The notes under the pieces: model-generated
The model's database searches: none
What the model was told of the DNA's origin: nothing
The model's input: only the letters and a program-made list of their open reading frames with translations
Shown: piece after piece, positions 6,696 to 38,442 of the stretch
Layout: the number at the start of each line of letters is the position of its first letter
How positions within the stretch are numbered: position 1 is the stretch's first letter
Position numbers and translations under genes: made by a program
NCBI GenBank assembly: GCA_016793805.1
Contig: JAEUIZ010000044.1
Span: 1-64,000, forward strand
DNA from: Phycisphaerae bacterium
Lineage (GTDB): Bacteria; Planctomycetota; Phycisphaerae; Phycisphaerales; UBA1924
Direction: 5' to 3'
DNA length: 64,000 bases

Positions 6696-6745
6696 AAGTG
6701 CCCCCCGAAGGACTCGAACCTTCGACCCGCTGATTAAGAGTCAGC
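6696..6745 (-). repeat. Distal attachment site: 3' fragment of tRNA-Lys (direct repeat)
   Basis: These 50 bases are identical to 38367-38416. Bases 6699-6745 correspond to tRNA-Lys positions 27-73 (anticodon stem to discriminator base); the 5' third of the tRNA is missing. This is the expected product of integration into the 3' end of a tRNA gene. Confidence 0.92.
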
Positions 6746-7054: not shown

Positions 7055-7108
7055 CATCCCAACGGTCGCAGGACGCGGCCCGCAGAGGCAATGGGAGGGG
7101 GTTGGGAC

Positions 7109-14127: not shown

Positions 14128-15710
14128 GCGTCCACCTCGATGGACTCGACGACGCGGGCGACCTCGGCGCTGGTGGTGACGCCGTCGCGTACGAGGCGCG
14201 TGGCGGCCTCGCGGAGCGTGACCATGCCGGCGCGCTGCGCGGCGTCCTTGATCTCGACGGCCGAGGCGCGGCGGGCGACCAGTTCGCGGATCGCGTGGTC
14301 GAGGACGAGGAGTTCGAAGACGCCGGTGCGTCCGCGGAAGCCGGTGCGGAGGCACTCGTCGCACCCGTGGCCCGCGCAGGGCGCGTGCGTGCGGCGCACG
14401 AGGCGCTGGGCAAGCACCGCCGAGAGCGACGAGGCGACGAGGAACGGCTCGACGCCCAGGTCGATGAGGCGCGCCACGGCGCTGGGCGCGTCGCTGGTGT
14501 GGAGCGTGGAGAGGACGAGGTGCCCGGTCAGCGAGGCCTGGACGGCGATCCGGGCGGTCTCTTGGTCGCGGACCTCGCCGACCATGATGACGTCCGGGTC
14601 CTGGCGCAGGATGTGGCGGAGGCCCGAGGCGAAGGTGACGCTCTTCTTGGGATCGACCTGCGTCTGGCTGACCGCCAGCCCGCCGTCTCCAGTTCCTGCG
14701 GCGCCTGCCAGGTCGTACTCGACGGGGTCCTCGATGGTCATCATGTTGAGTTCGCAGCCGCGCGATCCGGCGTGGGCGTTGCTGAGCCAGGCGAGGGTGG
14801 TGTAGAGAGTCGTGGTCTTGCCGCTGCCGGTGGGCCCGGTGGCGAGGACGATCCCGCTGGGCCGACCGACCTGGGCGAGGTAGTCGCGCTCGACGGCGGG
14901 GGGCATGCCCAGGCCCGTGAACGAGGCGAGGTAGGCGGAGCGCGCGGGGTCGAGCAGACGCACGACGACGCGCTCGCCGTAGGTCGACGGGAGCGTGCCC
15001 ACGCGCAGGTCCACGCGCCGTTCCGAGAGCGCGCCCGAGCCGCCGATGGTGACGGTCGCGCGCCCGTCCTGCGGCGCGCGGGACTCGGCGACGTCGAGCC
15101 GGGCCATGACCTTGATACGGCTGACGACGGCGGCGGCAAGGGACGCGGGCAGTTCGCGCACCGTATGCAGGACTCCGTCGAGGCGGTAGCGGACCAGCGT
15201 TCGGCCACGCAGCGGCTGGACATGCACGTCGCTGGCGGAGCGGGTCAGGGCCTCGAAGAGGATGAGGTCCACCAGGCGGACCGCGGGCGCCTTGCCCCCC
15301 GTGTGCAGGAGGTCGGCGTCGCGGATCGCGGCGGCGAGGTCGGCGCTCACGTCGGTCGAGCCGGTCACCACCACCCGCTCCTCGCGAGAGCCCTCAGCGG
15401 CAGTCCCGCCTGATCCGCCGCGGGTTGCGTTCGACTCCGCGTAGGCCGCGTCGATCTCGACGGCGATCACCTCCGCGGGTTCCGCGGCGGCGGTTGTCGC
15501 GCGGCCCAGACGGACGCCGACGTTGTGGACGATCCAGGGGGGGGTTCGCTCCGCGACGGCGAGGCGCTCGACGCCGCACTCGCACCCGCGGCTGAGCACC
15601 AGGTGGCGGCGCGCAAACTCGTGCGGGATGCGGGCCAGGAACTCGGGCGATGGCGCCACGCCCGCCTCGCGGAGCGTCTTCGCCTCGATCTGGCTCGGCG
15701 CGTGGGGCAT
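14124..15710 (-). CDS. gspE: T2SS assembly ATPase GspE
   Basis: The protein (528 aa) is a clear GspE/PilB ATPase: DVHVQPLRGRTLVRYRLDG (residues near 180), Walker A GPTGSGKTTTLY (about 291-302), an Asp box in MMTIEDPVEY, a Walker B region DVIMVGEVRD and the His box HLVLSTLHTSD. It would power pseudopilus growth in the cytoplasm, bound to GspL. The zinc loop near 442-453 reads CAGHGCDEC and has three cysteines, whereas most GspE proteins have four. The N-terminal 100 residues are a short GspE-N-like domain. It follows gspD after a three-base gap. Confidence 0.92.
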   Translation of the reverse strand: MPHAPSQIEAKTLREAGVAPSPEFLARIPHEFARRHLVLSRGCECGVERLAVAERTPPWIVHNVGVRLGRATTAAAEPAEVIAVEIDAAYAESNATRGGSGGTAAEGSREERVVVTGSTDVSADLAAAIRDADLLHTGGKAPAVRLVDLILFEALTRSASDVHVQPLRGRTLVRYRLDGVLHTVRELPASLAAAVVSRIKVMARLDVAESRAPQDGRATVTIGGSGALSERRVDLRVGTLPSTYGERVVVRLLDPARSAYLASFTGLGMPPAVERDYLAQVGRPSGIVLATGPTGSGKTTTLYTTLAWLSNAHAGSRGCELNMMTIEDPVEYDLAGAAGTGDGGLAVSQTQVDPKKSVTFASGLRHILRQDPDVIMVGEVRDQETARIAVQASLTGHLVLSTLHTSDAPSAVARLIDLGVEPFLVASSLSAVLAQRLVRRTHAPCAGHGCDECLRTGFRGRTGVFELLVLDHAIRELVARRASAVEIKDAAQRAGMVTLREAATRLVRDGVTTSAEVARVVESIEVDA

Positions 15711-15713
15711 GGT

Positions 15714-18332
15714 CTAGCGGATCACGCGGGGTCGGAGCACGGGCCAGCCATCGTCGACGCCCGCCTCGGCCGTCGCGGCGTCGCTGGCGTACTTGAGGTC
15801 CTCGTACCCGTCGGCACGCATGACCGTCGCGCGGATGAAGACGTAGAACCGCGTGCGGCTGGTGGTGCTCGAGCGGCTCTTGAACGCCTCGCCGAGGATC
15901 GGGATGCTGCCCAGGCCCGGGACCTGCGACGTGCCCTTGCCGTCGGTGTCGAGGTCGATCCCTCCGACGACGACGGTGTACCCGTCGGGCAGGCTCGCGG
16001 AGGACTGCACGCGGTTCTCCTGGCGCGGGGGTGGGAGGTTCGCGCTCGCGGCAGCGCCGACGAACGACGAGAGCGAGATGGAGTACTCGAGGTTGAGGTG
16101 CTCGCCCAGACGGACGCCGGCGCTGCCGTGCCCGGCCTCCGCGTCGCCCTCGCTCCGCGCCGCCGACCACCCCCCGACGATCTGGGGCTTGAGCGAGATC
16201 TGCGTCCCGGCCTGCTGCGAGCCGCCGAAGGAGGTGGTGGTCACCGTGTTCGAGGCGTTGGTGCTGGCGTAGGGCTGGTCGAGCGTCGAGTTCAGCGTCG
16301 CCTGCTGGTTGTTCGCCACCAGGAGCCGCGGCATCGAGAGCGAGCGGCCGCGGTTGATCGTCTGCAGCGCGCGCACGACGATCGAGAAGTCGCCGGGGCT
16401 GAGCACGAGGCCCGTAAGGCCCGCGCCGTTGCCGACGAGCGGCTCGCCCGCGCCCGACCGGCCCGAGAGCCCGAAGAGCGAGGAAAGGCGGAACGACGTG
16501 TTGCCATTCAGCGTGAGTTTGTCGAGTTCGACGCCCAGATCGGTCTTCTGCGAGTCGCTCAGGCTCACCAGCAGCACCTCGAGCATCACCTGCGGCTGGC
16601 GCACATCGAGCGTCGGCAAGAGGGCCTCAACCTGCGCGAGCGTGCGCGGATCGGCCATGACGATCAGCGTGTTCGTGCCGTCGTCGGTGGTCAATCGGAG
16701 CGGCGAGTCGTCACGCGGCCCACGTTGCGCATCCCATCCGCCGGCGCGAGCGGGGCTGCTCGGCATGTGTCCGGCGACCGGCCTCTGGGCGCTGGGCGTG
16801 GCCACGCTCGTCGGTCCGGATGTTGGCGTGGCGCTCGCTGGTGGCGTGCCTGCCGGGCGTGCCTCCGCCGGCGGCCAGGGCGAGGCGCCGCCCGACGGGC
16901 CGGACGACGACCCGGGAGGACCGCTGTCAGTCGTCACGTCGCCGATCAGCCCGGCACCGGCCATGTCTTCGAGGATCGCGCGGACCTCCGCGACTGGCCG
17001 GTTGCGGATGGCGAAGGAGCGCGCCGGCCGTCGGGCCGCCGCGGGCGTGGCGTCGAGGCGCTCGACGAGCGCCCGGATCGACTCGTGCTGGCTCGGGGTG
17101 GCGGTGATCACGAGCGTGCCCGTGAGTTCATCCGCGACCACGCGCCAGCGGTCGTCCGTCGGCACGCCCGGCGGGTCCTTGATCGTCTGCTCGACCAGGT
17201 CCGCGACCTCGCGCGGCGAGAACGAACGCGGCGCGTACGTCACGGTCTCGACCCGCTCGCGACGGTCCAGTCGCTCGACCAGGTCGCGCCAGTACGCGAC
17301 CCGATCCGCCGGCGCGACGACCAGCACCGCGTTGCCCGCGGGCGAGGCGAGCACCTCGCCCGGCACCTTCTCGCGGGCCACGAGTTCGCGCTTGGCCGCC
17401 ACCTGCGCCACGAGCGTCGCGAGCGCCGGAGCCGTGAGATTCCGCACCGGCACCTCGATCACGTCCGTCGCTCCGGCGGGGACATCCAGGAGCGCGAGCA
17501 TGGCGAGAGATTGGTCCAGCCGCGAGGCCAGATCGGACAGCAGGAGCAGCCCGCCGCCCTCGTCGAGCGCGATCGCGCCCGATGCGGTGCCGCCGCCCGC
17601 GCCGCGAGCGAGCACGCGGCCCAGGGCGTCAGCCAGTTCCTTGGCGGGCCGGTGCATGGCACGGACCACGACCGTCTCGAACCCCGCGGGCGGAGCCACG
17701 CCCGATCCAGCGGCGGTCAGTGGCCGCCCGGCTGGCGTTGAACCCGGCGCGAACTCGCGCTGGAGCGCCACCTCCGGCAACACGACGACCGCGAGCGCGT
17801 CCGTCGTCTTCACGACCGCGTAGCTCGGGCGTCGAGGGGCGTCGAATGCCCCGTCGCGGCCCGGGTCCGCGGGCTCTCCAGGCGGCCGGACCTCTGCCGG
17901 TCGCGGCGCGTCCTGTGGCCGCGCCGGCCCGCCCGGTGCTCCCGACCGGCTCGCGCCGTCCACGCGGACCGTGGTGAACCCCCGCATCGCCAGCACGCGG
18001 TTCATCAGCGACCACAGTTCCGCGTCGGAGAGGCCCGCGTCGGCCCGCAGCGTGATCGAGCCCGCCGCGCGGAGAGCCGCCGCGTCGTACTCCACGTTCA
18101 CGCCGAGCCGGCCCGCCGCCACGTCCACCAGCCGCGTCACCTCGATCTGCCCGGCCAGCAGCGTGGGGGCCGGCTCGCCCGCCACGGGCTGGGCCGGCTC
18201 GCGCGGATCAGGCTGTGCGACGAGACGAGTCGATGCGGTGAGCACGAGCATGCACCCGAGCCAAACCCCGCTCGAGCGCGACGGTTCTCTTCGATCGAAC
18301 ACCGGCATGTGCTTCCTCGGCTCACCGCTCAC
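15714..18332 (-). CDS. gspD: T2SS outer-membrane secretin GspD
   Basis: The 872-residue protein starts at GTG 18332, overlapping the TGA of the upstream gene; a signal peptide with core GVWLGCMLVLTAS precedes cleavage near LVAQ. N0/N1-type repeats occupy about 60-450 (VIEVPVRNLTAPALATLVAQ, ETVTYAPRSFSPREVADLVEQ-like segments). A Gly/Pro/Ser-rich linker of about 80 residues follows at 470-550, longer than usual. The secretin domain carries VPGLGSIPILGEAF near 802, the family hallmark. It would form the outer-membrane channel. Confidence 0.92.
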   Translation of the reverse strand: MSGEPRKHMPVFDRREPSRSSGVWLGCMLVLTASTRLVAQPDPREPAQPVAGEPAPTLLAGQIEVTRLVDVAAGRLGVNVEYDAAALRAAGSITLRADAGLSDAELWSLMNRVLAMRGFTTVRVDGASRSGAPGGPARPQDAPRPAEVRPPGEPADPGRDGAFDAPRRPSYAVVKTTDALAVVVLPEVALQREFAPGSTPAGRPLTAAGSGVAPPAGFETVVVRAMHRPAKELADALGRVLARGAGGGTASGAIALDEGGGLLLLSDLASRLDQSLAMLALLDVPAGATDVIEVPVRNLTAPALATLVAQVAAKRELVAREKVPGEVLASPAGNAVLVVAPADRVAYWRDLVERLDRRERVETVTYAPRSFSPREVADLVEQTIKDPPGVPTDDRWRVVADELTGTLVITATPSQHESIRALVERLDATPAAARRPARSFAIRNRPVAEVRAILEDMAGAGLIGDVTTDSGPPGSSSGPSGGASPWPPAEARPAGTPPASATPTSGPTSVATPSAQRPVAGHMPSSPARAGGWDAQRGPRDDSPLRLTTDDGTNTLIVMADPRTLAQVEALLPTLDVRQPQVMLEVLLVSLSDSQKTDLGVELDKLTLNGNTSFRLSSLFGLSGRSGAGEPLVGNGAGLTGLVLSPGDFSIVVRALQTINRGRSLSMPRLLVANNQQATLNSTLDQPYASTNASNTVTTTSFGGSQQAGTQISLKPQIVGGWSAARSEGDAEAGHGSAGVRLGEHLNLEYSISLSSFVGAAASANLPPPRQENRVQSSASLPDGYTVVVGGIDLDTDGKGTSQVPGLGSIPILGEAFKSRSSTTSRTRFYVFIRATVMRADGYEDLKYASDAATAEAGVDDGWPVLRPRVIR

Positions 18333-19096
18333 GGGAAGACGATGGCATTCCAGGCGAGGTGGACGGCGGTCAAGTCGTTTAACCCCGCAGACGCGGCGGC
18401 GACGGCGGAGTTGGCGTTGGCTTCGGTGACGACGGCGGCGTGTGCCGCACTGGGCGATGATCCGAGCCGCTCAGCGATTCTCTGAGCGCTTAGGGCGTCG
18501 CGGAGCGCCACCAGATCGCGTTCGCTGCGACTGACGACCGCGTATTGCACAGGCAATCCACCGTCGCGGTTCGTGGCGATGGTGGCGAGCGCTGTTCTGC
18601 TGCTAAGCGAGAGACCCTCCGTGGCTGCCGCGAACGCCGCCTGGAGTGCGGCCTGCTCCTGTGAGACGGCTAGGCGTTCGGCCGCGAGGGCAGTCTGGAA
18701 CGCCTGAACTTCGTCGTGTCGACCGGAGGCCACGGCCCGCCCCAATGCCTGGGTTGCCGCGGCCATCTCGGACCGCCGAGTCATCGCCTGTTTGAGCGCG
18801 GGCAGGTTCTGTTGCAGATGGAGGTCGAGCGCGGTCATGCACGCCGTTGCGCCCGAGGCCGTCACTCCGGCCGCGGCCAGGTGCTCGGGGATCAGCCCAA
18901 TGCGGGCGGCGATCTGTACGCGGTCCTCTCGCGTCGGCGCGTCCTCCATGGTCATCACGGCGGGGACCGACGCAACCGCCCGAGGAGCCTTCGTTCGGGC
19001 AGCGGCAGCCACTCCCGCCCAAGCGATGGACGCGAGAGCCGCGGTGGAAAGGACCACGCAGCACACCGACCGATGACGGCGCTTCGTTGCTTCCAT
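18329..19096 (-). CDS. Secreted helical protein heading the T2SS operon (255 aa)
   Basis: ATG 19096 has GGAGGAT six bases upstream; an ATG at 19135 would add a stretch without a signal peptide. A Sec signal peptide (CCVVLSTAALASIAWAGVAAA, cleaved about residue 33) precedes Ala-rich helices: PTREDRVQIAARIGLIPEHL, PALKQAMTRRSEMAAATQAL and AAERLAVSQEQAALQAAFAA. It may be a periplasmic helical bundle, possibly like Spy/CpxP chaperones, but no motif of that family (LTxxQ) is visible. Being first in the operon and adjacent to gspD, it may assist secretin or the secreted substrate. Confidence 0.6.
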   Translation of the reverse strand: MEATKRRHRSVCCVVLSTAALASIAWAGVAAAARTKAPRAVASVPAVMTMEDAPTREDRVQIAARIGLIPEHLAAAGVTASGATACMTALDLHLQQNLPALKQAMTRRSEMAAATQALGRAVASGRHDEVQAFQTALAAERLAVSQEQAALQAAFAAATEGLSLSSRTALATIATNRDGGLPVQYAVVSRSERDLVALRDALSAQRIAERLGSSPSAAHAAVVTEANANSAVAAASAGLNDLTAVHLAWNAIVFP

Positions 19097-19125
19097 GGCG
19101 ATCCTCCGGATGCGGGGACTCGATG

Positions 19126-19155
19126 AGTAGATCAACCCGTGCCCCGCATGTCAAG
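19126..19155 (-). promoter_or_regulatory. Putative promoter of the T2SS operon (minus strand)
   Basis: On the minus strand: TTGACA (19154-19149), a 17-base spacer, then TCTACT (19131-19126), 30 bases upstream of ATG 19096. The -35 box is the left arm of the inverted repeat TGTCAAG-CCCCC-CTTGACA. Confidence 0.55.
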
Positions 19156-19190: not shown

Positions 19191-19237
19191 GCGGCGAGCC
19201 CGTGCCTGCGTGCGCGGCGCGGCACAAGGAGCATTCC

Positions 19238-22200
19238 ATGTCACGTGCCCTCGCTGGCGTCGTGGTGGGCTTTGCGAGCCTTGTCCAGGCCCAGATCCTC
19301 CAACTCAACACCGACTCGATCACCACGCGCCGCATGCCCGCCGCAACGGGCGTGCAGGGCGTCTGGCCGATCGTCGGCCATCGAGGGGTGAACCTCGACG
19401 GCACGCTGCGCGAGCCCCCGAACTTTGACTGGGCGATCGCGGGGAACCCCTTCGGTGAGCCGTGGAACGACAACATCCGCCGCGGCGCGGTTCGCCTCGA
19501 CCTCGGAACGTGGACTGCGAGCGAGACCGACCTCGAGTTGCCCGCCCCGGCGTTCACGTGGCCGATCGGTCGGAGTTACAACGCACGCCAGTACGGCGCT
19601 TCCGGCTATCAGGACAGCAACGGCTACCAGGGGTACAACTGGACGCAGAACTCCCAGCCGGAGCTCTCGTTCTACGACACGGACAGCAACTCTTCGACCA
19701 AAGAGGCCACCGACCTCCTCTTCCTTGTGGCGGGCGCGGACCGGTTCTTCGAGTACAAGCGCAAGGGAACGACCGGGGATGACGCCGACATCTTCATCGG
19801 CGTCAACGGGGCGGGCGGCGCGATGCGCTGGGTGACCGACGGCAGCGGGCCCGACCTCATCCTCTTCTACGACCAGACGGGCCTGGAGGTGTCGTTCTTC
19901 GCGTTCAACGACTCCTCCCACATCGCCACGGCCAAGCAGGGCCAACTCTGGCGGATGGTCCGCCGCGGCACCAACGCCTCGTCGGACTCCGACGACTACT
20001 TCGCGTACGTCGGCGACAAGACTGACAAATCGACCGCTCTCTCGGGCTACGACTCCTCAGGCCGGATGCTGACCGCGTACGACACCGCCGGGAGGAAGTA
20101 CGAGTACAGCTACACGAGCGGACGGCTGACGAGCGTGATCGTCAAAGTGTGGTCCGGGAGCGCCTGGGTGGCCACCGGCGACAAGGTCGAGTACGCCTAT
20201 TACGGGTCGAGCGAGTCGCACGGCTTGGAGGGCGACCTTAAGCTCGCGACCACGACCCGCCAGACCAGCGACTCGACACGCAAGGTCGTCGCCAAGACCT
20301 ACTACCGCTACTACACCACCACCTGGACCAACGCCGACGGCCAGCGCGTCCACCCGCACTGCCTCAAGATGGTCGTCGGGCCGAACGGCACGCGCGCGTA
20401 CGACTTTGGTGAGGGCGGAACCGAGACTCCTGCGGTCCTCGACGACGGGTTCCTGACGGCAGCGGACTCTGTACTCAAGCCCTATGCCGACGCGTGGTTC
20501 GAGGCGTACGACCAGGCCGATCGCCGGATCACCAAGGCGTTCTTCGCCGGCGAGTGCACATGCTCCGGAGGCGGCCTGGTCAACGGCCTGACGGAGTTCG
20601 CCTACGAGAACAACGGCGGGTTCAGTAACACCTCCGGGTATGACACCGTGTGGCACAACCGCACGGTCGTGACGCTCCCTCCGCACGAGTACGCACTCGA
20701 CAGCTACGCCCAGCCCATGACGTACCAAGCGCTGCTCGTACAGTACTTCGATGAGACCGGGCAGTGCCTCTCGCGCGTCACCGCCGAGAGCAGCCTGAGC
20801 GCCACGCCGTACTGGCCCAAACTGGTCGTCCGCGATTCGTCGGGACGCATCGAGTGGATCCACTGGCCCGCGAACATCACGTCGTACACGCACTCGTCGG
20901 CCTCGTTTGCGACCAGCACCTCCGCGGGCCTGGTGCGGAAGTTCATCCGCGAGACCAGCGGCACGTACACCGGGTTCCTTCGGTCCATCACGTACCAGTC
21001 CGGCTACAACGCCTCGTCCCAGCCGACCTCCTATTACGAGCTGACGAAGGAGTACCTGAGCGCGCCCTCGCTCACCCCGTCCACCGGGTTCACGATCGTG
21101 CGGCCGCTCCTGCAATACGAGTGGGCCTACACCGAGGCCAGTTCCACGGCCGCCAGCCACGGCGGGAGTTCCGTCTCCGGCGCGTACGAGACCCAGCACG
21201 CCTACACGATGTGGACGGGCGACGCGGCGCTGTCGCTCAAGCGCGTGACGACGACGCACCCCGCCGTCGCTACGACGAAGAACGGGTCGGGGAGCGCCGC
21301 CACCCACGACACGTACTCCCGGACCGATGGAACGGCCGCGTTCGAGAAGGCGGACGACGGTGCGTACACCTACACGTCCTACAGCGGCGGGCTGCTCGTG
21401 AAGCGCGTCGATGATGCCGACATCTCGCACAGCAGCGAGTTCGGCACCGAGGACCCCTATGGCACGTTCGGCATCAACGAGTCCGGCGCGTACGGGCTGC
21501 ACGTGGTCACGACCTACGCCTACGTGGGCGATGGCCTCCTCGACACGACAGTGATGTACGCGGGCTCGGCCGACGCGGTGACGCAGCGGACGTTCCACAC
21601 CGTCCTCGACGATGGCCGGCCGGTCGAGCTCTTCTCACCCAAGATCAACACGACCCCGAACCCCGATGTCTATTACGGCCCCGTGTCGTACCGCGTCCGG
21701 AACTTGTCGGGCAATCTGGAGGCCGACGCGACGGTATCGCTATCGAGCGGGAGCACAACGACCGATCCGTCGAGCTGGATCAACACGAGCACGAGCACCC
21801 CGATCGGCGACCCGATCGCCGCGTTCAGCTCATCGGTCGGCTCGTTACTGAGGTACAAGACAACCGTCTTCGACAAGCCCGGTCTTCGCAAGACCGAGGA
21901 CCGCGTCTACCACACCGTGCCGTCCTCGGGCGCCGGGGCCTGGCAGACCAACTACGACCAGACGCTCTACAAGTACGACGACGCCGGGAATCGCGTGCGG
22001 ACGGTTGACCCGTCGGGAACGATCCTCAGAGTTATGCATGAGGGGCGAGGGCTTCCGCTGATGGCCCAGATGGGGACCGATGACTCCACCATCATCGGCC
22101 TTGGGCCCACCAACAACATGCGCTGGATCTGGGCCAGTTCGTACAACGGCGGGCAGCACCCCACGAGCAACAGCGGCATCGGGTTCCCGGGCAACCTCGG

Positions 22201-25200
22201 CGGCTCGGGCGAGGGCACGGGCGACGGCGAGAAGACCGGCGGCGCGTGCTGCGGGGACGTCGACGAGACGGACCTCTATCTCTACTGCTGGGACGACGAG
22301 AGCGACAGTCCCGGCGCGTTCACGAGCGTCTGGCGCGACGTGCGAGGATTCCCAATCGTCGTGCACGCCCCCTCAGCGCCCCACATGCTCTATATCCGCG
22401 ACAACCTCGGGCGGCCCACCGTCGTCGGCCTGTACAGCAGCACCACTGGCCTCGACATGAGCGACAACCCCACGACGCTCACCACGAACCGCGTCGGGCT
22501 CGTTGAGATCTTCTACGACGAGCGCGGCCGGGTGTGGAAGCGGGTCGTGCACAAGATCAACCCCGCCGACGGCTCCGACACGAGCGGGGCCGAGATCACC
22601 GAGCTCTCGTGGTACGACGACGAGGGGCGGCTGATCAAGCGGTCCGGCCCGCAACTCTTCAAGGTCCAGTACGACGGCCTGGGCCGCGAAACCAACCGCT
22701 ACATCCTCGCCAAGGCCAACGACACGACCTACAGCGGGCTCTACACGGCGAGTTCGAGGACCACGCTCGTCACGAATGACATCGTGCTCGAGGAGCACCA
22801 GTCGAACCGCAACCTCAAGACGGGCGACGTGCTGCTCTCGGTCGTGATCCGCCGGCACCACAACGACTACGGATCGAGCGAGACAACCGGCGCGCTCGAC
22901 ACCAACGCCGACGCGGATCGCCTGAAGGTCACGGCCGCCAACCTCAAGGGCCGGGCTCAGATCACCGCGTCCTGGTTCGACGACCTGCGGCGTGAGACGA
23001 CGCGATCGAACTACGGCACCAACGCCGGCTCCGACTTCGACCGCACCGGCCTCTCCGCGCCCACCTCCTCCACCAGCGGCCGACTGGTGACGGCCTGGTC
23101 CTACGACAGCGCCGGGGCGCTCTACGAGTTCACCGACGCCCGCGGCTCGAAGACCCGCTACGAGTACGACCACGCCGGCCGCCAGACCGTGGTGACCGAG
23201 AACTACACCAACGGGACGCCGGGGGGCGGATCGGACAACGACGAGGACCGGGTCACGAGATACACCTACTCCTACCCGCCCAGCGAGGCCCCGGGCCTGA
23301 TTCGCACGATCGTCGCCGACCGCGACGGAACCGACGACGACCAGACGACCACCTACACCTACGGCACGGTCAACACCGGCACCGGCGACATGATCTCCCA
23401 GATCGCAACGGGCCATCTCCTGAGCAAGATCAAGTACCCGGACTCGTCCGGCTCCAGCGACGTGGTCGAACTGGCCTACAACCTGGGGCGGGTCGTGACC
23501 AAGGTCCGCGACCAGGCGGGCAACATCACCGAGATCACCTACGACGGCCGGCGACGCGAGAAGAGCCGCACCGTCTCCACGCTGGCGAGCGGGTTCGACG
23601 GCGCGGTGCGATCGATCCACACCACCTACACCGGCCTCGGCCAGATCGACACCGTGACCCAGAAGGACGGCTCGTCGACGCCGGTCGTGACCGATCAGGT
23701 CAAGTTCTCCTGGGACGGCTGGGGCCAGCTCACGCAGTTCGACCAGGACTGGGATTCCACGGTCGGCGGCAGCGGCGGCATCTCGACCCGCAGCGTCACC
23801 TACGCCTACGAGCGCTCCACCGCGGGCCGCACGACCGTCCGGCGCACGTCCGCGACCTACCCCACCGGCAACGACGTGGTCTACAAGTACCTATCGAGCG
23901 GCGGCCGCCACGACGACGAGGCCAGCCGCGTCACGCGGGTCACGCTCTACAACCCCGCCACGGACAGCGAACTCGACATCCTCGCCTACGAGTACCTCGG
24001 CGCCGAGCGCGTCGTCGGCACCGACTACCTCGAACCCAACACCTGGAACCACCTCTACGGCACCAGTTCCGGCTCCTACCCCGACCTCGACCAGTTCGAC
24101 CGCGTCACCACAGACAAGTGGACGCGGACGACCGGCTACTCGGGTCTTCCGACGGTCAACCCCTACGAGGCCGCGGTCACCTACGACTCCAACTCCAACC
24201 CCACGCTCTCGGACGACAAGGTCCACGCCACCACGTTCGACGCCAAGTTCGACGTCGACAACCTCAACCGCCTCCAGCGGGCCCAGGAGGGCGAGTGGGG
24301 CGGCTCCTCGTTCACCACCACCTCGCGCGACGAGCGATGGGACCTCGGCCCCACGGGCAACTGGACCGTCCACAAACTCGACCTCAACGGCGACGGCGAC
24401 TTCGTCGACACGAACGAACTGGACGAGAACAACCCCGACACCGGGAGCACGCCCAACTTCAACAAGGCCAACGAGCAGACCGGCCGCAACACCAACAACA
24501 GCGGCGGCAACGAGCACACGCTCGTCTACGACGCGGTGGGTAACATGACCAACGACGGCAAGGACTACAAGTACGTCTACGACGCCTTTGGTCGCCTGCG
24601 AAAGGTGCTGAATCGCTCGAACGACGCGCTGGTCGCCGAGTACCGCTACAACGGCCTGGGGTACCGGATCGCGTGGCACTACGACACCACGGACGGCAGC
24701 ACGGGCGAGCCCGATGGGGACGTCGATTCCGACGACCCCTGGTACTACTTCCTCTACGACGAGCACTGGCGGGTGATCGCCACGGTGCGGGGCAACGGGG
24801 CGGGGACATCGGCGGACTCGTCGGCCAAGGAGCGGTTCATCCACCACGCGGCGGGGTACGACGGCGACGGAGGGGGCTCGTACATCGACGCCATCGCCCT
24901 GCGCGACCGGGACGGCACGAACGGGTGGGCCGGGGCGGCGGATGGTACACTGGAGCAGCGGCACTACCTCTTCCAGAACTGGCGGCACGACGTGGTGATG
25001 GTCCTCAAGCCCAACGCGGAGCAGGTCGAGCAGACGCGGTACTCCGCGTACGGCGTGCCCTTCGGGCTGCCCGCGGCCGACGCGAACTCCAACGGCATGG
25101 TCGATGCCGCGGACCTGACGCTGATCTACAACATGTACTCGGGCACGTACGGCGTCCTGGGCGACATCAACCTCAACGGCATGATCGATGTCAACGACCT

Positions 25201-26284
25201 GACGCTGGCCTACAACCTCTCGGCCGCCGGGCACACCCTCGGCCGCGGCGTGCTGTCGCGGTCGGACGTGGGTCTGCGGAGAGGGTACGCGGGGTACGAG
25301 TGGGATCCGGCCGTCTCGCGGTACCACGTCCGCAACCGCGTCTACGCGCCGGAACTGGGGAGGTGGTTGGCAAGGGACCCGATCGAGTATGTTGTCGTGG
25401 CAAGTCTCTATCACTATGCAGACCAAAGGCCGATGTTTTGGGTTGATCCCCTCGGACTCTTGGGCGAGCCAACCACGCCACCAAGCACAACTCGACCTCC
25501 CGGCATTCCACGCCCACCCGGAGTGATGGATCCTGGATACACAATCGAGCCCGGAGACTCGCCACAGGACATTGTCAAGAAGCAACAAGGAGTCATCAGA
25601 GATCGCAATCGCGGAAAGCACCTGAACACGAAGGAGATGGATTGTTGTTTCAGCATCGCCGACGGCATGCAGGATGCGACCGATGGGTCCTTCAAGACTG
25701 ACTACGACGGCGCATTGAGGGAGTTAAAGGATCAGACCAAGAGCGAGATGATTGGCTATGCCGCCGTCGGCGGCGCGATGGTTGCCGCAGGCTGCTGTGA
25801 ACTGGGGGCGGCGGCACGCGGAGCGGGGGGTGCGGCGGACGACTTGGGCGGTGGGATTGCGAAGACACCAGGAAAGGGACCTCCTGGCCGTCCAAAGCCG
25901 CCTTGGGGACCTCGAACGTTCCCTGAGTCACCTAGTGTAAAGCCGCCTGGATACGACCCAAAGTGGGAAGTCACTCCAATTCCGAATAGCACTCCTCGTT
26001 ACACGGATCCGGCCACGGGCAACAATTGGCGATGCCATCTCCCTGATGCCGGGCACAAGAACTGGCACTGGGACTTCCAGCCAGGCAAGGATCGGCCGTG
26101 GATAAACCTTGATCCAAGTGATCTGCGGCCGCTTCCTGGACAGGAGGACAAAGTCAAGATGATACCCAAGAGCTGGCCCGTACCATGGTCGTTCCTGACT
26201 GAGCCCGACTTGCCATGGACGTGCGCGGGAGAGCGGCTGTTCGCGCGTTCCCCCGCAGGTGGACATCTCGCGCAGTGCAGTTAG
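19238..26284 (+). CDS. Giant secreted RHS/YD-repeat protein with C-terminal toxin-like tip (2348 aa)
   Basis: Starts at ATG 19238 with AAGGAG nine bases upstream. A signal peptide (MSRALAGVVVGFASLVQA) directs Sec export. Numerous YD repeats follow (YDDAGNRVRTVDPSGTI, YEYDHAGRQTVVTENY, YDSNSNPTLSD), building the RHS shell. Near residues 1945-2000 lie two dockerin-type EF-hand motifs (DANSNGMVDAADLTLI and DINLNGMIDVNDLTLAYN) inside the RHS core. The core ends at PELGRWLARDPIEY and VDPLGLLG (to about 2075). The last 270 residues have different, lower-GC composition and contain DPATGNNWRCHLPDAGHK and WHWDFQ; this is the variable tip of a polymorphic-toxin layout, its activity unknown. Gene 26309-26737 is the candidate immunity gene. 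Confidence 0.88.
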   Translation: MSRALAGVVVGFASLVQAQILQLNTDSITTRRMPAATGVQGVWPIVGHRGVNLDGTLREPPNFDWAIAGNPFGEPWNDNIRRGAVRLDLGTWTASETDLELPAPAFTWPIGRSYNARQYGASGYQDSNGYQGYNWTQNSQPELSFYDTDSNSSTKEATDLLFLVAGADRFFEYKRKGTTGDDADIFIGVNGAGGAMRWVTDGSGPDLILFYDQTGLEVSFFAFNDSSHIATAKQGQLWRMVRRGTNASSDSDDYFAYVGDKTDKSTALSGYDSSGRMLTAYDTAGRKYEYSYTSGRLTSVIVKVWSGSAWVATGDKVEYAYYGSSESHGLEGDLKLATTTRQTSDSTRKVVAKTYYRYYTTTWTNADGQRVHPHCLKMVVGPNGTRAYDFGEGGTETPAVLDDGFLTAADSVLKPYADAWFEAYDQADRRITKAFFAGECTCSGGGLVNGLTEFAYENNGGFSNTSGYDTVWHNRTVVTLPPHEYALDSYAQPMTYQALLVQYFDETGQCLSRVTAESSLSATPYWPKLVVRDSSGRIEWIHWPANITSYTHSSASFATSTSAGLVRKFIRETSGTYTGFLRSITYQSGYNASSQPTSYYELTKEYLSAPSLTPSTGFTIVRPLLQYEWAYTEASSTAASHGGSSVSGAYETQHAYTMWTGDAALSLKRVTTTHPAVATTKNGSGSAATHDTYSRTDGTAAFEKADDGAYTYTSYSGGLLVKRVDDADISHSSEFGTEDPYGTFGINESGAYGLHVVTTYAYVGDGLLDTTVMYAGSADAVTQRTFHTVLDDGRPVELFSPKINTTPNPDVYYGPVSYRVRNLSGNLEADATVSLSSGSTTTDPSSWINTSTSTPIGDPIAAFSSSVGSLLRYKTTVFDKPGLRKTEDRVYHTVPSSGAGAWQTNYDQTLYKYDDAGNRVRTVDPSGTILRVMHEGRGLPLMAQMGTDDSTIIGLGPTNNMRWIWASSYNGGQHPTSNSGIGFPGNLGGSGEGTGDGEKTGGACCGDVDETDLYLYCWDDESDSPGAFTSVWRDVRGFPIVVHAPSAPHMLYIRDNLGRPTVVGLYSSTTGLDMSDNPTTLTTNRVGLVEIFYDERGRVWKRVVHKINPADGSDTSGAEITELSWYDDEGRLIKRSGPQLFKVQYDGLGRETNRYILAKANDTTYSGLYTASSRTTLVTNDIVLEEHQSNRNLKTGDVLLSVVIRRHHNDYGSSETTGALDTNADADRLKVTAANLKGRAQITASWFDDLRRETTRSNYGTNAGSDFDRTGLSAPTSSTSGRLVTAWSYDSAGALYEFTDARGSKTRYEYDHAGRQTVVTENYTNGTPGGGSDNDEDRVTRYTYSYPPSEAPGLIRTIVADRDGTDDDQTTTYTYGTVNTGTGDMISQIATGHLLSKIKYPDSSGSSDVVELAYNLGRVVTKVRDQAGNITEITYDGRRREKSRTVSTLASGFDGAVRSIHTTYTGLGQIDTVTQKDGSSTPVVTDQVKFSWDGWGQLTQFDQDWDSTVGGSGGISTRSVTYAYERSTAGRTTVRRTSATYPTGNDVVYKYLSSGGRHDDEASRVTRVTLYNPATDSELDILAYEYLGAERVVGTDYLEPNTWNHLYGTSSGSYPDLDQFDRVTTDKWTRTTGYSGLPTVNPYEAAVTYDSNSNPTLSDDKVHATTFDAKFDVDNLNRLQRAQEGEWGGSSFTTTSRDERWDLGPTGNWTVHKLDLNGDGDFVDTNELDENNPDTGSTPNFNKANEQTGRNTNNSGGNEHTLVYDAVGNMTNDGKDYKYVYDAFGRLRKVLNRSNDALVAEYRYNGLGYRIAWHYDTTDGSTGEPDGDVDSDDPWYYFLYDEHWRVIATVRGNGAGTSADSSAKERFIHHAAGYDGDGGGSYIDAIALRDRDGTNGWAGAADGTLEQRHYLFQNWRHDVVMVLKPNAEQVEQTRYSAYGVPFGLPAADANSNGMVDAADLTLIYNMYSGTYGVLGDINLNGMIDVNDLTLAYNLSAAGHTLGRGVLSRSDVGLRRGYAGYEWDPAVSRYHVRNRVYAPELGRWLARDPIEYVVVASLYHYADQRPMFWVDPLGLLGEPTTPPSTTRPPGIPRPPGVMDPGYTIEPGDSPQDIVKKQQGVIRDRNRGKHLNTKEMDCCFSIADGMQDATDGSFKTDYDGALRELKDQTKSEMIGYAAVGGAMVAAGCCELGAAARGAGGAADDLGGGIAKTPGKGPPGRPKPPWGPRTFPESPSVKPPGYDPKWEVTPIPNSTPRYTDPATGNNWRCHLPDAGHKNWHWDFQPGKDRPWINLDPSDLRPLPGQEDKVKMIPKSWPVPWSFLTEPDLPWTCAGERLFARSPAGGHLAQCS
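24902..25366 (+). repeat. RHS core repeat, copy 1
   Basis: This 465-bp stretch of the RHS gene aligns without gaps to 26767-27231 and, from 24841 to 25091, to 28469-28719. It covers the end of the RHS core and the dockerin-like motifs. Copies 1 and 2 differ at scattered positions. Identity drops just after the PELGRW motif, where the tips begin. Confidence 0.9.
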
Positions 26285-26308
26285 GCCCAGCCATTCAGAG
26301 GATATGCA

Positions 26309-26737
26309 ATGACATCAACAGATCTGTCGCAACTGAGTATTTACTCGTCAGAACCCTACGCAACACGACACTACCGAGTGTATTGGCATACAGTTGATTC
26401 GGGCGCTGTATGTCGCTTGCTGGACATCTTTTCTCGCCTCCATGCTATTGGAGGAGAGTGTGATCTCTTGGTGTTTTCGCCCGTTCTTCACTGGCCAATT
26501 GAGTCCTTTGATCTGAGAACCATTGAGTTGTCCGAGCATCGAGAGTCGAGACTGCTTGCTAGCGATGACGGCAGACGCTGGTGCTGGGAGGGCAATAGTC
26601 GAACTTGGTTGGACAGCGCCAACAAGCTTGAGCAAATCATCAAATACGCGCGCCCGTCCCATCATGTGTTAGTCTGGCCTACCCAGATCTCTGCCGAACT
26701 GGTCTTTGAGTACAAGGAACAGTCAGATTTCGCCTGA
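26309..26737 (+). CDS. Candidate immunity protein for the first RHS tip (142 aa)
   Basis: ATG 26309 starts 24 bases after the RHS stop. The protein, MTSTDLSQLSIYSSEPYATR onward, is acidic, with no signal peptide, and is clearly lower in GC than the RHS core. Its placement directly after a polymorphic-toxin-type tip is the usual one for the cognate immunity gene. No family recognised. The stop at 26735-26737 sits right before RHS cassette copy 2. Confidence 0.5.
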   Translation: MTSTDLSQLSIYSSEPYATRHYRVYWHTVDSGAVCRLLDIFSRLHAIGGECDLLVFSPVLHWPIESFDLRTIELSEHRESRLLASDDGRRWCWEGNSRTWLDSANKLEQIIKYARPSHHVLVWPTQISAELVFEYKEQSDFA

Positions 26738-27951
26738 CGGCTACCCGCAGAAATCGGGACGCCTTCCGCGATCGGGACGACACGAACGGGTGGGCCGGCT
26801 CGGCGGATGGTACACTGGAGCAGCGGCACTATGTGTTCCAGAACTGGCGGCACGACGTGGTAATGGTCCTCAAGCCCAACGCGGAGCAGGTCGAGCAGAC
26901 GCGGTACTCGTCCTATGGCGTGCCCTTCGGCCTGCCAGCGGCGGACGCGAACTCCAACGGCATGGTCGATGCCGCGGACCTGACGCTGATCTACAACATG
27001 TACTCGGGGACGTACGGCGTCCTGGGCGACATCAACCTCAACGGCATGATCGACGTGACCGACCTGACTTTGGCCTACAACCTCTCCGCCGCGGGGCACT
27101 CGCTCGGCCGCGGCGTGCTGTCGCGGTCGGACGTCGGCCTGAGACGCGGCTATGCGGGATACGAGTGGGACCCGGCCGTCAGCCGGTACCACGTCCGCAA
27201 CCGCGTCTATGCACCGGAGTTGGGGAGGTGGACGAATAGAGATCCTTTGCTCAACTTTCATCGAAGCAATAGCTCATACGAGTACTCCAGCAACTCGCCC
27301 GTCAGCAGATTGGATTCGCTTGGCTTGTTTGATGATCCGCTCATCGATCGACCTACGCGTCCGCCGTCAACTCAGGACACATACAGGTGCTGGAAGACTG
27401 AGAATTGCCAGCCCCTCGATGGCATCTCTGGAAAGCGCATAGACTCCACAAATGGCCTGTCCATGGTAGCCAACGATGTGGCGTCTCGACATTGTATGTA
27501 TGCCGATATTCAGTGCCACGCTAGAGGTGGATCCCCAGATATCTCTGATGGTAGCGCGTATCCTACTCGAGGAACCCTGCGCGAAATCGAACGCAGACGT
27601 GGCATTCCTGGCTGGGACAAAGTCGACCCAAAGACGGACAACTTCAAGCACTTAGATAACACGCTAAAGACGATTGAGGCCGGGACTGACGAAGTGCATT
27701 GGGGCTGTTGCAGCGTCTTTGCAGGTCCGGGGGGGAAGGAGTTCAAGGACCTGCTCGAGAGGCTGTACCCCGGTACAAAGTGGTCTGGACCGGAAGTACC
27801 GGTTTGGACCACTCCCGGCGTGAACTGGGAGTTGTACTTTCCGTGGGAGAAAGCTAAGACAAAGGGAGGCGACAAGGGTGGCGGAGGAGCGTGCCCACCG
27901 TCTGGGGGCGAACCGCCAAGCGTGCGTGGCAGCGAACTGCTGATGTCGTAG
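26710..27951 (+). pseudogene. Displaced RHS tip cassette: core repeat copy 2 plus second tip
   Basis: An open frame without a proper start encodes the core repeat (26767-27231, same residues as 1888-2043 of the RHS protein, ending PELGRW) and then a different tip of about 240 residues that begins TNRDPLLNFHRSNSS and includes RLDSLGLFDDP. Tip 2 has cysteines (CWKTENC, HWGCCSVF) and ends in a Gly/Lys-rich tail. A GTG at 26833 is the first in-frame start, too far inside to give a full core. This looks like a silent orphan cassette that recombination could place on the RHS gene. Low GC in the tip again suggests acquisition. Confidence 0.7.
26767..27231 (+). repeat. RHS core repeat, copy 2
   Basis: Colinear with 24902-25366 at a constant offset of 1865 bases. 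It is fused behind the immunity-like gene with no start codon of its own. Codes for the RHS core end and dockerin-like motifs. Confidence 0.9.
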
Positions 27952-27962
27952 TGACTATTGCC

Positions 27963-28448
27963 ATGCGTACAAATGCCAAGCACAAATTGCTGGTTCTAGC
28001 GATCCTTGTCAGCACCGCCGCTTCAGTCGTGCTGTATTTGGCGGCACGGCGACCGACGAAGTGGTTATTCGGTGACGACGGGCATACGTTTCAAGTCACA
28101 TGCGATGAGTGGGTATTCACCAGCAAGGAACTAGCAAGCGAGTACCTACGTGAGCACGATGACCCGGAGTCACGTAGGACGTCGGGGTGGAGCGAGAGAA
28201 TGCGCGCTGGTATCCCAGTCTGCCCACTATGCGGCGCACTGTTGCATTTCGATCCCAACATTGCGCACTGGGCTTTCGGCGCTGAGCGAGACGGAGTGCC
28301 CCTCGTCGGTTGCCCACGAGTCCACCGCTATTCTGAGCGGCAAGGCGGGCCAGCGGCTGGGTACTGGGTCGTGGATGGATATCACAATCGTCATTTTCTT
28401 CGGCTGGACGTTGCTCCTCGGTGGCTGCTTGACGCAGATGCACAATGA
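27963..28448 (+). CDS. Candidate immunity or membrane protein for the second tip (161 aa)
   Basis: ATG 27963 starts 11 bases after the tip-2 stop; GTG 27951 overlapping the TAG is also possible. The N-terminus has one membrane segment (LLVLAILVSTAASVVLYLAA, about 7-26). The body has CPLCGALLHFD, a single cysteine pair. Position after tip 2 suggests immunity, the membrane segment suggests protection at the membrane. The last ten bases are followed in the same frame by the RHS copy 3. No family recognised. Confidence 0.45.
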   Translation: MRTNAKHKLLVLAILVSTAASVVLYLAARRPTKWLFGDDGHTFQVTCDEWVFTSKELASEYLREHDDPESRRTSGWSERMRAGIPVCPLCGALLHFDPNIAHWAFGAERDGVPLVGCPRVHRYSERQGGPAAGYWVVDGYHNRHFLRLDVAPRWLLDADAQ

Positions 28449-28724
28449 TACACTGCAGTCCGACTCGTCCACCACGCGGCCGGGTACGACGGCGGGGGCG
28501 GGGGGTCGTACATCGACGCTGTGGCCCTGCGTGACCGGGACGACACGAGCGGGTGGGCCGGGGCGGCGGATGGTACACTGGAGCAGCGGCACTATGTGTT
28601 CCAGAACTGGCGGCACGACGTGGTGATGGTCCTCAAGCCCAGCGCGGAGCAGGTCGAGCAGACGCGGTACTCCGCGTATGGCGTGCCCTTCGGCCTGCCC
28701 GCGGCGGCCGCGAACTCCATGTGA
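28449..28724 (+). pseudogene. RHS core fragment, copy 3 (truncated)
   Basis: The frame continues from the preceding stop and encodes HHAAGYDGGGGGSYIDAVAL and on to PFGLPAAAANSM, ending in TGA. It matches RHS residues about 1868-1951 and stops just where the dockerin-like motifs start in copies 1 and 2. No tip follows; the sequence joins another YD fragment at 28720. Confidence 0.75.
28469..28719 (+). repeat. RHS core repeat, copy 3 (251 bp)
   Basis: Colinear with 24841-25091 at a constant offset of 3628 bases. It extends further upstream than copy 2 and ends earlier. Confidence 0.85.
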
Positions 28725-29130
28725 TGTGGACGGCAACCGCACCTCCGGCGGCCGGTAGGAGTACACCTGGGACGGGGAGAACCGCTTGGTGGCGATGCAG
28801 ACGAGGAGCGGACTGCCGACGGGGCTGCCGATCCGGCGACTGGAGTTCACCTATGACTTTCTGTTGCGGCGGGCGACGAAGGAGGTCTTCGAGCCCACGG
28901 CGGCGCCGCCCAGCGACGACGACGAGGACCAGGACGGCGGGTCGGGCGGGGTCACGGGCGACGACGGCGGGGGCTCGGGCGTCGCGCCCCACGGTTGGAC
29001 GAGCCTGGGCTGGGTTGAACGCCTCGGCATCCCCGCTACGTTCCGGTGCAAAGCCGCAGGCGGGATGGGCCTCGCCCGACACGGTCACTGTCCGACGGCT
29101 TCAAAGCCTATCGACCCGGTTCTGCAGTAG
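28720..29130 (+). pseudogene. YD-repeat fragment of an older RHS gene, with in-frame TAG
   Basis: The frame CDVDGNRTSGGR-stop-EYTWDGENRLVAMQT is a YD repeat (DVDGNRT, YTWDGENRL) in which a TAG at 28756-28758 replaces what is probably a Tyr or Phe codon. It continues as RRLEFTYDFLLRRATKEVFE and then an Asp/Gly-rich tail. It is unrelated to copies 1-3 in detail, so it comes from a different RHS gene. The 3' end (29101-29130) overlaps the end of the minus-strand SIR2-like gene. Confidence 0.6.
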
Positions 29131-30018
29131 GGTCAGGCAATCCTCTGTCTGATCGCCCAACTTTGCATCAGCGTCCAGCGTTTCACGAACCCGCCGCTGC
29201 TCCGATCCGGAGAGTCGAAAAGCAGTGCCGATGACCCTTCGCTTGCGCCCGGTCCACTGAGGGAACTCTTTCCCGATTCCCAGCCGGCGCAAGTTGGTGG
29301 GATCGAATGCGAAGCCCAGGAAGATGAGCTGATCGGCCTTCCAAACTCGCTCTCTGTATCCGGTGTTCTCGAGGCGTTCCCGATCATCCGCGAGCTGAAG
29401 GTGGTGGTGCCAGAACTCAGCACCCGTGCGAGGACGCCTCGTCAGCACCGTCAGATCCTGTTCGCTCACACCCCATGTCAGTGCGCCGTACACGTGTTGG
29501 ACATTCCAGCCGCCCACCTGCTCGATGGCCTGGTCACGACTGGTGGCCAGGGAGTTGGTCAGCATCTGAACAAGCGCCCATTCGAGCAGGCAATCGTAGT
29601 TGAAGGTGACCACGGCCACTTCTCGGGAGTCCAATCGACCCCGCCTCTTCAACTGCCCAAAGAGCCAGGCGTGCCAGTCACCCGAGAGGATTGGGTCTCC
29701 GTACAACCCCACCTCAAAGGGAAGGAGAGTCGCAGCGATCGCAAACGTGCCGTAACGGCGCGCCCATGCACTCGGATGAGAACCGAGCCAGGCATCGACC
29801 GTCGCGTCACCGGAACGCGACAACTCTTCCGCGAATCTCTCCTTGCTCCACCCGAGACTTTGCTCCATTGCCACCTTCTGGTCAAAGGTCGGGTACGACA
29901 GAAAGTCCCGGGGTGGGTCGGGTGGGTTCTCAACGATTAGAGCCTTGAGCCCGCTTGAAGTGGGTAGGCCGAACGGCACGCTCGCGCCCGCTCCCACCAC
30001 GATCGTTGTTGATGGCAT
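29101..30018 (-). CDS. SIR2-like protein, candidate anti-phage NADase (305 aa)
   Basis: A Rossmann nucleotide-binding start, TIVVGAGASVPFGLP (GAGAS at 9-13), is followed by the SIR2-like signatures VVTFNYDCLLEW (near 138) and QHVYG (near 174, the candidate catalytic His), and IFLGFAFDPTNLRRL near 232. These fit the SIR2_2 group of stand-alone SIR2-like proteins, many of which deplete NAD during phage infection. The Cys4 zinc site of deacylases is absent, in contrast with the true sirtuin at 48166-48951. There is no obvious partner gene, so a defence role is inferred from family and mobile context. Confidence 0.7.
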   Translation of the reverse strand: MPSTTIVVGAGASVPFGLPTSSGLKALIVENPPDPPRDFLSYPTFDQKVAMEQSLGWSKERFAEELSRSGDATVDAWLGSHPSAWARRYGTFAIAATLLPFEVGLYGDPILSGDWHAWLFGQLKRRGRLDSREVAVVTFNYDCLLEWALVQMLTNSLATSRDQAIEQVGGWNVQHVYGALTWGVSEQDLTVLTRRPRTGAEFWHHHLQLADDRERLENTGYRERVWKADQLIFLGFAFDPTNLRRLGIGKEFPQWTGRKRRVIGTAFRLSGSEQRRVRETLDADAKLGDQTEDCLTLLQNRVDRL

Positions 30019-30252
30019 CTGTCAAACTTCCGTGACAAGCGAGAATGCCTGCAGCGGTCCTTGCGAACCGTCGCGACGATTGGCTTACTACGCCATGCCA
30101 GACGTCGCCTCACCGTACCAAGCTTGGCCTTGTCCAATCAAATGATACACTCGCCACACGCACAACCTGCGCGATTGATTAGGGCCGATCGATGCCTTGC
30201 GTTCATGCTGCGACTTGCGGTAACTGTGCGACACGGGGGCCGGAGCTTCGTC

Positions 30253-30900
30253 ATGCTCACCGCCGCCCACAGTCGCAATGCTGAAACATCCCCGATCCAC
30301 GGGATATCTCGCCGCCGTCGCCCCAAGCGCCGCCTCCCGCCCGAGGTTCTCACCGACGCCGAGGTTCGCGCGCTGATGAGCGCCTGCGGGCGCTCGGCGA
30401 CGGGGCTGCGCAACCAGGCGCTGATCGCGCTGCTGTACCGGTCCGGCCTCCGCATCCGCGAGGCGCTCGAACTGCGGCCCAAGGACCTCGACCTCGCCGC
30501 CGGCGCCGTCCGCGTCCTGTACGGCAAGGGCGGCACCTCGCGTACGGCGGGCCTCGATGCCGGCGCCGCGGCGGTCGTCACGCGCTGGCTCGACGTGCGC
30601 GCCTGCCACGGCGCGACCGGCCTCGCGCCCGTGTTCTGCACGCTGCGGGCGCGAAGACTTACGGAGGCGTACGTCCGCGTGCTGCTGCCGCGTCTTGCCC
30701 GCCGCGCCGGCATCGAGAAGCGTGTCCATGCCCACGGCCTTCGCCACACCCACGCCGCCCAGCTCCGCGCCGAGGGCATGGACATCGGGCTGATCAGCAA
30801 GCAACTGGGGCACCGAAGCATCGCTACGACGGCGAGGTATTTGGACCACATCGCGCCGGCGGCGGTGGTCGAGGCGATTGGGGCGAGGGTGTGGGGGTGA
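30253..30900 (+). CDS. Short tyrosine recombinase (215 aa)
   Basis: ATG 30253 has GGAG eight bases upstream; a longer reading from 30061 adds residues without family character. The catalytic set is complete: R in SGLRIREALELRPKDLD, K in YGKGG, HGLRHTHA (HxxR), LGHRS and Y in ATTARYLDHI. The N-terminal SAM-like core-binding domain seen in XerC/D and phage integrases is nearly missing, since only about 40 residues precede the catalytic domain. It may act on another protein's DNA contacts or be a reduced integron-type or IS-type recombinase. It sits between SIR2-like and ISP-remnant genes. Confidence 0.75.
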   Translation: MLTAAHSRNAETSPIHGISRRRRPKRRLPPEVLTDAEVRALMSACGRSATGLRNQALIALLYRSGLRIREALELRPKDLDLAAGAVRVLYGKGGTSRTAGLDAGAAAVVTRWLDVRACHGATGLAPVFCTLRARRLTEAYVRVLLPRLARRAGIEKRVHAHGLRHTHAAQLRAEGMDIGLISKQLGHRSIATTARYLDHIAPAAVVEAIGARVWG

Positions 30901-33543: not shown

Positions 33544-33804
33544 GTGACTCAGCATCGCCAACAGCAAACTTCATCCTCGGTGGACCCGGAAACTCTCGCG
33601 CCGCGGCTCGTTGACACCAACGGCGCCACTCAGATCCTCGGCGGCATCTCCGCCCGCCATCTCTGGCAACTCGCCGATGACGGCGTCATCCCGCGCGTGA
33701 GGCTCGGTCGCCGCGTGCTTTTCGACGTTCGCGATCTCAACGCCGCCATCAGCGCGGCGAAGCACGCCGCTTATGCGCCGGCTCGTGGTCGCTCGTCGCG
33801 CTGA
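33544..33804 (+). CDS. HTH/excisionase-like protein (86 aa)
   Basis: GTG 33544 has GGAG six bases upstream; an in-frame GTG at 33517 adds nine residues. The core reads ISARHLWQLADDGVIPRVRL, then GRRVLFDVRDLNAAIS, the MerR/HTH_17-type winged helix of phage excisionases. It precedes the primase and integrase genes, where element regulators or excisionases sit, and could control integration direction. Only one HTH is present. Confidence 0.72.
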   Translation: MTQHRQQQTSSSVDPETLAPRLVDTNGATQILGGISARHLWQLADDGVIPRVRLGRRVLFDVRDLNAAISAAKHAAYAPARGRSSR

Positions 33805-34094
33805 TGAACACCGCACAAGCCGCGCGATCGCCTCTCACAGTGCCGCGCGGCGGGAACTTGAACATGCAAAGTGTAACGAACGATACACCCCACGGCTTTC
33901 CCATTTCACTCCTGACCTCGTGCTACCACTGCGGGCGCCCGGCCGCTCGGGCCATCGCGTACCCCAACCCGCGCAACTCGATGCTGATCGCCATCGCGTT
34001 CTGCGACGCGCACGAGGCGGAAGCCGTTGCGGAGATGGGGGGCGTGCTCCAGACCGCGGCCGCCATGACGGGCGCCGAGGGAGGCGAGGGATGA
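33804..34094 (+). CDS. Small hypothetical protein with one CxxC (96 aa)
   Basis: ATG 33804 shares its first base with the previous stop (TGATG). The body contains CYHCGRPAARAIAYP and a second pair at FCDAHEAEAV, which may form a small Cys/His zinc knuckle. The stop overlaps the ATG of the primase gene by four bases, so it is part of the same transcript. Function unknown; it may bind DNA or the primase. Confidence 0.55.
   Translation: MNTAQAARSPLTVPRGGNLNMQSVTNDTPHGFPISLLTSCYHCGRPAARAIAYPNPRNSMLIAIAFCDAHEAEAVAEMGGVLQTAAAMTGAEGGEG

Positions 34095-38366: not shown

Positions 38367-38432
<66 letters not shown>

Positions 38433-38442
<10 letters not shown>

Follow-up and report, generated by a model that had tools for sequence, protein, structure and literature searches.

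A planctomycete Rhs locus with repeated core ends and a probable orphan tip-immunity cassette

Orphan rhs-CT/rhsI modules (C-terminal displacement) are known from enterobacteria (Jackson 2009, PMC2935791; Poole 2011, PMC3150448; Koskiniemi 2014, PMC3967940). In those loci, core fragments that lack a start lie behind a full-length rhs gene, each with a different low-GC tip and a small gene after it, an arrangement shared by the locus described here. Tipless core fragments were noted in two E. coli strains (Jackson 2009, PMC2935791), and in Salmonella, recombination can install an orphan tip once a duplication has preserved the previous immunity gene (PMC3967940). The account of polymorphic toxins by Zhang 2012 (PMC3482391) lists RHS, planctomycetes and caspase-like toxin domains. 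We analyzed a 64,000-nucleotide stretch of DNA, denoted as the window, from a draft genome of 59 contigs. The preliminary description of the window, made from its sequence, had spoken of a planctomycete-like element, and the host indeed belongs to Phycisphaerales (Planctomycetota). The locus is very probably an Rhs polymorphic-toxin gene accompanied by one spare (orphan) tip-immunity cassette.

Repeated core ends and their tips

The features of the locus are as follows.

19202-26284, + strand: main Rhs gene, 2360 aa (open reading frame; PF05593, E 6e-7; TIGR03696 Rhs_assc_core, 50.6 bits)
24895-25366, + strand: core end, copy 1, with an embedded dockerin-like EF-hand pair at about 25079-25220 (self-blastn)
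25367-26284, + strand: tip 1, attached, 305 aa, its own DPLGL and then a toxin-candidate region, up to the end of the reading frame at 26284
26309-26737, + strand: candidate immunity gene 1, 142 aa, 25 nt past the tip 1 stop and 23 nt ahead of copy 2
26710-27951, + strand: open frame of copy 2 and tip 2, preceded by TGA at 26707, first in-frame start GTG at 26833 inside the core
26760-27231, + strand: core end, copy 2, 90.7% identical to copy 1, in the same phase, dS 0.355, dN 0.030
27232-27951, + strand: tip 2, orphan, 239 aa, with the variant DSLGL (homologs at L111:6005-6664(-), E 7e-10, and L116:1920-2603(-))
27963-28448, + strand: candidate immunity gene 2, 161 aa, with an N-terminal hydrophobic segment and CPLCG, 12 nt past the tip 2 stop
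28465-28719, + strand: copy 3, the 5' part of the core end, terminal and without a tip, 92.2% identical to copy 1
28720-29110, + strand: broken piece of another YD/Rhs repeat region, seen in translations

The main gene was assigned to Rhs by PF05593 (30.1 bits against a cut-off of 22) and by TIGR03696 (cut-off 32.5 bits), and its product is probably an antibacterial weapon. The protein begins with a signal-peptide-like segment at its N-terminus and continues through RHS/YD repeats and the core end to DPLGL and tip 1; the DPxGL motif between core and tip is thus present as DPLGL in the main gene and as the variant DSLGL in tip 2. A CDI system, with a haemagglutinin-repeat CdiA and a CdiB partner, was considered and rejected, the 2360-aa protein matching RHS models only. 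The EF-hand pair embedded in the core end scored 22.6 bits against the Dockerin_1 cut-off of 22.9, with half of the profile aligned. Its D..G..D columns are invariant in 10 relatives that are otherwise about 45% identical, and the stretch is a helix pair in a low-confidence structure model. Such a pair may make the shell end calcium-dependent.

When the region was compared with itself by blastn, three core copies and no more were found, at positions that agree with those of the preliminary description to within a few bases. Copy 1 (24895-25366) matches copy 2 (26760-27231) without gaps over 472 nt at 90.7% identity (E 3e-172, offset 1865), and the 5' part of copy 1 (24837-25091) matches copy 3 (28465-28719) without gaps over 255 nt at 92.2% (E 1e-93, offset 3628), while copies 2 and 3 are 92.9% identical over 196 nt. 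With E-values of 1e-93 and below, the repeats cannot have arisen by chance. The first two copies follow each other head to tail on the same strand and have a common codon phase; their core-end proteins are 94% identical, and the longest stretch of perfect identity measures 65 nt. Their homology stops at the GRW codons (25366 and 27231), about 30 residues ahead of the DPxGL motif, and the segment with DPLGL or DSLGL therefore belongs to each cassette itself. Behind each of these two tipped copies a different low-GC tip follows in frame, and then one small gene. The core has a GC content of 0.65-0.70, the tips have about 0.53-0.60 and the small genes 0.49-0.60. The next core copy begins about 20 nt past each small ORF. 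The earlier claim that a different low-GC tip or immunity-like gene lies behind each break holds for copies 1 and 2 but not for copy 3, which is in frame and stop-free as far as its broken end inside the core and is followed from 28720 by an unrelated, high-GC, frame-broken YD/Rhs piece.

Copy 2 has no proper start, as had been claimed: there is no in-frame ATG, GTG or TTG ahead of 26833, which itself lies inside the core. The frame remains open over 413 codons, and it holds neither a signal peptide nor an Rhs shell; GTG 26833 and ATG 26863 are possible internal starts. Considering the lack of a start and of an export signal, the copy 2 cassette is probably not made.

Neither tip matched a named toxin family in Pfam, NCBIfam, PHROGs or the PDB, by sequence or by fold; for tip 1, Pfam and the PDB gave no match and NCBIfam gave only a remnant of the Rhs core. 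Candidate immunity gene 1 had no family match above cut-off, and candidate immunity gene 2 had no family match. The fold model of tip 2 had a mean pLDDT of 48, and its Foldseek matches were meaningless. A profile search with tip 2 that included the core end was swamped by the common GRW-DPxGL segment, and without that segment it gave one weak match. The tip 2 homolog in L111 matched DUF4347 at E 0.003, below the cut-off, and tip 2 itself possibly contains a DUF4347-like domain with a His near 27519 and a Cys near 27711. From its position, 26309-26737 is probably immunity gene 1, and the putative immunity gene at 27963-28448 likely protects against tip 2. We infer the toxicity of the tips, the immunity role of the small genes and the silence of copy 2.

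Related arrays, selection and the terminal fragment

Of 61 genomes sampled from the host family, 49 contain a relative of the core end, a count that includes weaker matches to the dockerin-like stretch alone and exceeds the number of true Rhs loci. The named core relatives are draft genomes of Phycisphaerales and other Planctomycetota. In many genomes of the family, one large ORF is followed by start-less ORFs of 350-500 aa on the same strand, and most of 41 intervals in related arrays have the order of tip, small gene and next core copy; the orphan-tip layout is common in the family and occurs in many of its genera. One genome assembled as a single 3.26-Mb contig (G079) has several loci with a large ORF and start-less ORFs, and on the single contig of a more distant planctomycete (G602) the GRW-DPxGL segment is matched seven times in a stretch of 19 kb.

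The tip 1 family, attached in the window, occurs as an orphan in G006 (58% over 67 aa), with a related tip in G307. Relatives of tip 2 come from two other genera, represented by G307 (29% over 168 aa, E 7e-10) and by G299; those found so far are orphans, none of them on a full-length gene. In the congeners G006 and G307, cores are about 90% identical between species and 92-96% within, and the tips are mostly different. Since tip families stand on different cores and in different genera, tips move between cores. The preliminary description would have been contradicted by uniform tips among the relatives; instead, tips differ on homologous cores, and one tip family is attached in one genus and orphan in another. 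On one G307 contig that has no full-length Rhs gene (L111, G307:C9), three orphan tips lie directly past ffh; a transposase-like ORF marks the far end of this array, and one of its core copies is preceded by some 195 nt of matching sequence. Phycisphaerales-like Rhs genes were also seen in drafts named Acidimicrobiia and Opitutae (L174 and L191), which are either misbinned contigs or cases of transfer.

Over 157 codons, copies 1 and 2 are separated by 33.5 synonymous and 10.5 amino-acid changes (dS 0.355, dN 0.030, omega 0.09). Since unexpressed, drifting tandem copies would not give such values, the two either diverged as parts of working genes, with copy 2 imported or displaced, or are refreshed by exchange. 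The tip behind copy 2 had been described as probably a spare; its anatomy is indeed that of an orphan tip, but the constrained core, with an omega of 0.09, does not fit a simple silent local duplicate. In related arrays, omega between full copies is mostly low, at about 0.05-0.25 with few higher values, and that of tipless fragments is somewhat above full copies on the whole. Two core copies of G084 match at 99.75% identity for 801 nt, as far as DPMGL, but have unrelated tips beyond, which points to recent exchange.

A tipless core fragment like copy 3 forms the right end in 17 of 20 arrays with a judgeable right end, in a set that had been picked for containing repeats. In a census that was not repeat-selected, covering 16 full-length Rhs genes followed by 2 kb or more of sequence (the window included, some genomes being shared with the 20-array set), a downstream core copy was present in 8 of the 16, and the last copy was tipless in 8 of these 8. 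One conserved cut site was rejected for the terminal fragment, as its end points vary between loci and between congeners. The fragments may have been left behind as scars when tips were displaced, or they may be arms that allow the last cassette to be excised, which the circular model of Jackson 2009 requires. A more far-reaching proposal, which we put forward tentatively and consider rather doubtful, is that the tipless fragment is a kept right-hand homology arm, and that all tip-immunity pairs, including one that is attached and alone, are bracketed by core repeats and can enter or leave as circles through ordinary recombination; this would be a recombinase-free cassette system across planctomycete genera, here on a tRNA-integrated island.

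The island and its neighboring genes

Three further features describe the surroundings of the Rhs gene.

6696-6745, no strand: left direct repeat (attL-like), 50 bp, identical to 38367-38416
38367-38416, no strand: right direct repeat (attR-like), formed by the 3' part of tRNA-Lys(CTT) at 38369-38442(-)
14124-19135, - strand: secretion genes divergent from the Rhs gene, with a GspE-like ATPase (14124-15710), a GspD-like secretin (15714-18332) and a partner (18329-19135)

The Rhs locus sits in a 31.7-kb integrated island, based on the perfect 50-bp tRNA-Lys direct repeats and on a tyrosine recombinase (integrase; 36961-38100) and a D5-type primase (33773-36829) beside the right copy. Just inside the left repeat, a ParB-N domain is fused to an N6/N4 DNA methylase (7091-8512). 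A second, XerC-like tyrosine recombinase (30061-30900) lies 1.3 kb to the right of the array end, and XerC-like genes near Rhs were also found in G002, G073, G082 and PNC22. The idea that an integrase always accompanies the arrays was rejected, as one lies near only a handful of loci. Adjoining the array, a SIR2-like gene (29101-30018; weak match to PF13289, E 0.004) is possibly a defence gene. No RNA families were found at 18-34 kb.

Relatives of the GspE-like, GspD-like and 268-aa partner proteins all adjoin Rhs in three other genera (G028, G006 and G074). The partner protein alone is near several further Rhs genes, including one on a second Rhs contig of the host genome (C36). Because these genes stand beside Rhs genes, a T2SS-like export route for the Rhs protein is plausible.

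Proposed tip exchange, alternative origins and known systems

With a repeated core, different tips, one small gene behind each tip and a start-less copy 2, the orphan-tip reading is supported by the anatomy of the locus. According to this reading, the main gene would encode a secreted Rhs shell ending in tip 1, adjoined by its probable immunity gene, and core copy 2, tip 2 and the second small gene would be a displaced or imported cassette. Homologous recombination of copy 1 with copy 2 would place tip 2 in frame at the end of the main gene and would loop out 1865 bp with tip 1 and immunity gene 1; the reverse process, with circles from related strains, would add tips and shift old ones downstream. 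The terminal tipless fragment would serve as the homologous arm for the right side of the last cassette. From the arrangement of the repeats, we infer that tips can be switched by recombination in the host organism. A direct swap, as drawn in the preliminary description, would delete immunity gene 1 and expose the cell to its siblings, and the Salmonella work suggests that duplication comes first.

The start-less frame of copy 2, together with the truncated copy 3 and the frame-broken YD fragment behind it, could also be read as decaying debris, in which both copies are dead Rhs remnants left by insertions and deletions and have no role as spare parts. We consider this improbable, since copy 2 keeps an open frame of 413 codons with an omega of 0.09 relative to copy 1, tip 2 and its small gene are intact, and the ordered layout of tip, gene and core recurs across genera. 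It is also unlikely, though conceivable, that copy 2 is expressed as a short core-tip protein that starts within the core, stays inside the cell and forms a toxin-antitoxin-like pair with 27963-28448. The in-frame GTG at 26833 has a GGAG 12 nt upstream, and the title of PMC7043789 reports Salmonella Rhs elements as toxin-antitoxin modules. However, that GGAG falls in a conserved coding part of the core, and the sole promoter-like match in 25300-29300 is on the opposite strand and no better than chance. The head-to-tail order of the copies on one strand would also suit a single core-tip unit that was duplicated in tandem and whose tips then diverged fast. This origin is highly improbable, because the cores are about 90% identical under purifying selection while the tips lack any similarity, and tips 1 and 2 have separate relatives in other genera.

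The warhead-swapping Rhs layout worked out in enterobacteria is thus also common among planctomycetes of a family that has received little attention in research on bacterial warfare. Its many array-bearing genera, including long-contig genomes, make it possible to test the circular-intermediate model of tip displacement that was proposed long ago, since a tipless core fragment closes nearly every array and the model must either make use of it or account for it. The GspD/GspE-like neighbors link these Rhs genes to a possible export route.

Compared with other cassette systems, the locus resembles integron gene cassettes as an array of exchangeable cassettes between repeats, but its repeats are hundreds of bases of coding core and not attC sites. 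An integron with an IntI-type integrase was rejected: the XerC-like protein of 30061-30900 scores 89 bits on TIGR02249, against a cut-off of 265. The silent cassettes of Neisseria mafB likewise comprise a complete gene and, behind it, variable C-terminal pieces with conserved sequence on either side, whereas the protein family is unrelated according to PMC2935791. Polymorphic toxins with cassettes (Zhang 2012, PMC3482391) share replaceable C-terminal domains and neighboring standalone toxin cassettes; the word dockerin is absent from that text. Closest are the enterobacterial orphan rhs-CT/rhsI modules, in which, as here, core copies are alike within a locus and tips are common to several species; main and orphan copies in Salmonella share 522 bp at 95%, against 472 bp at 91% in the window. 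Unlike in enterobacteria, the host is a planctomycete, GspD/GspE-like secretion genes adjoin the locus, the core end carries a dockerin-like insert, and homology ends at GRW ahead of DPxGL, in the window and in several related arrays. A tipless fragment usually closes the arrays described here, but is an exception in enterobacteria. Taken together, the orphan-tip layout has been known from enterobacteria since 2009, and to it are now added another host group, an end fragment that recurs between arrays, a dockerin-like module embedded in the core end, and secretion genes as neighbors.
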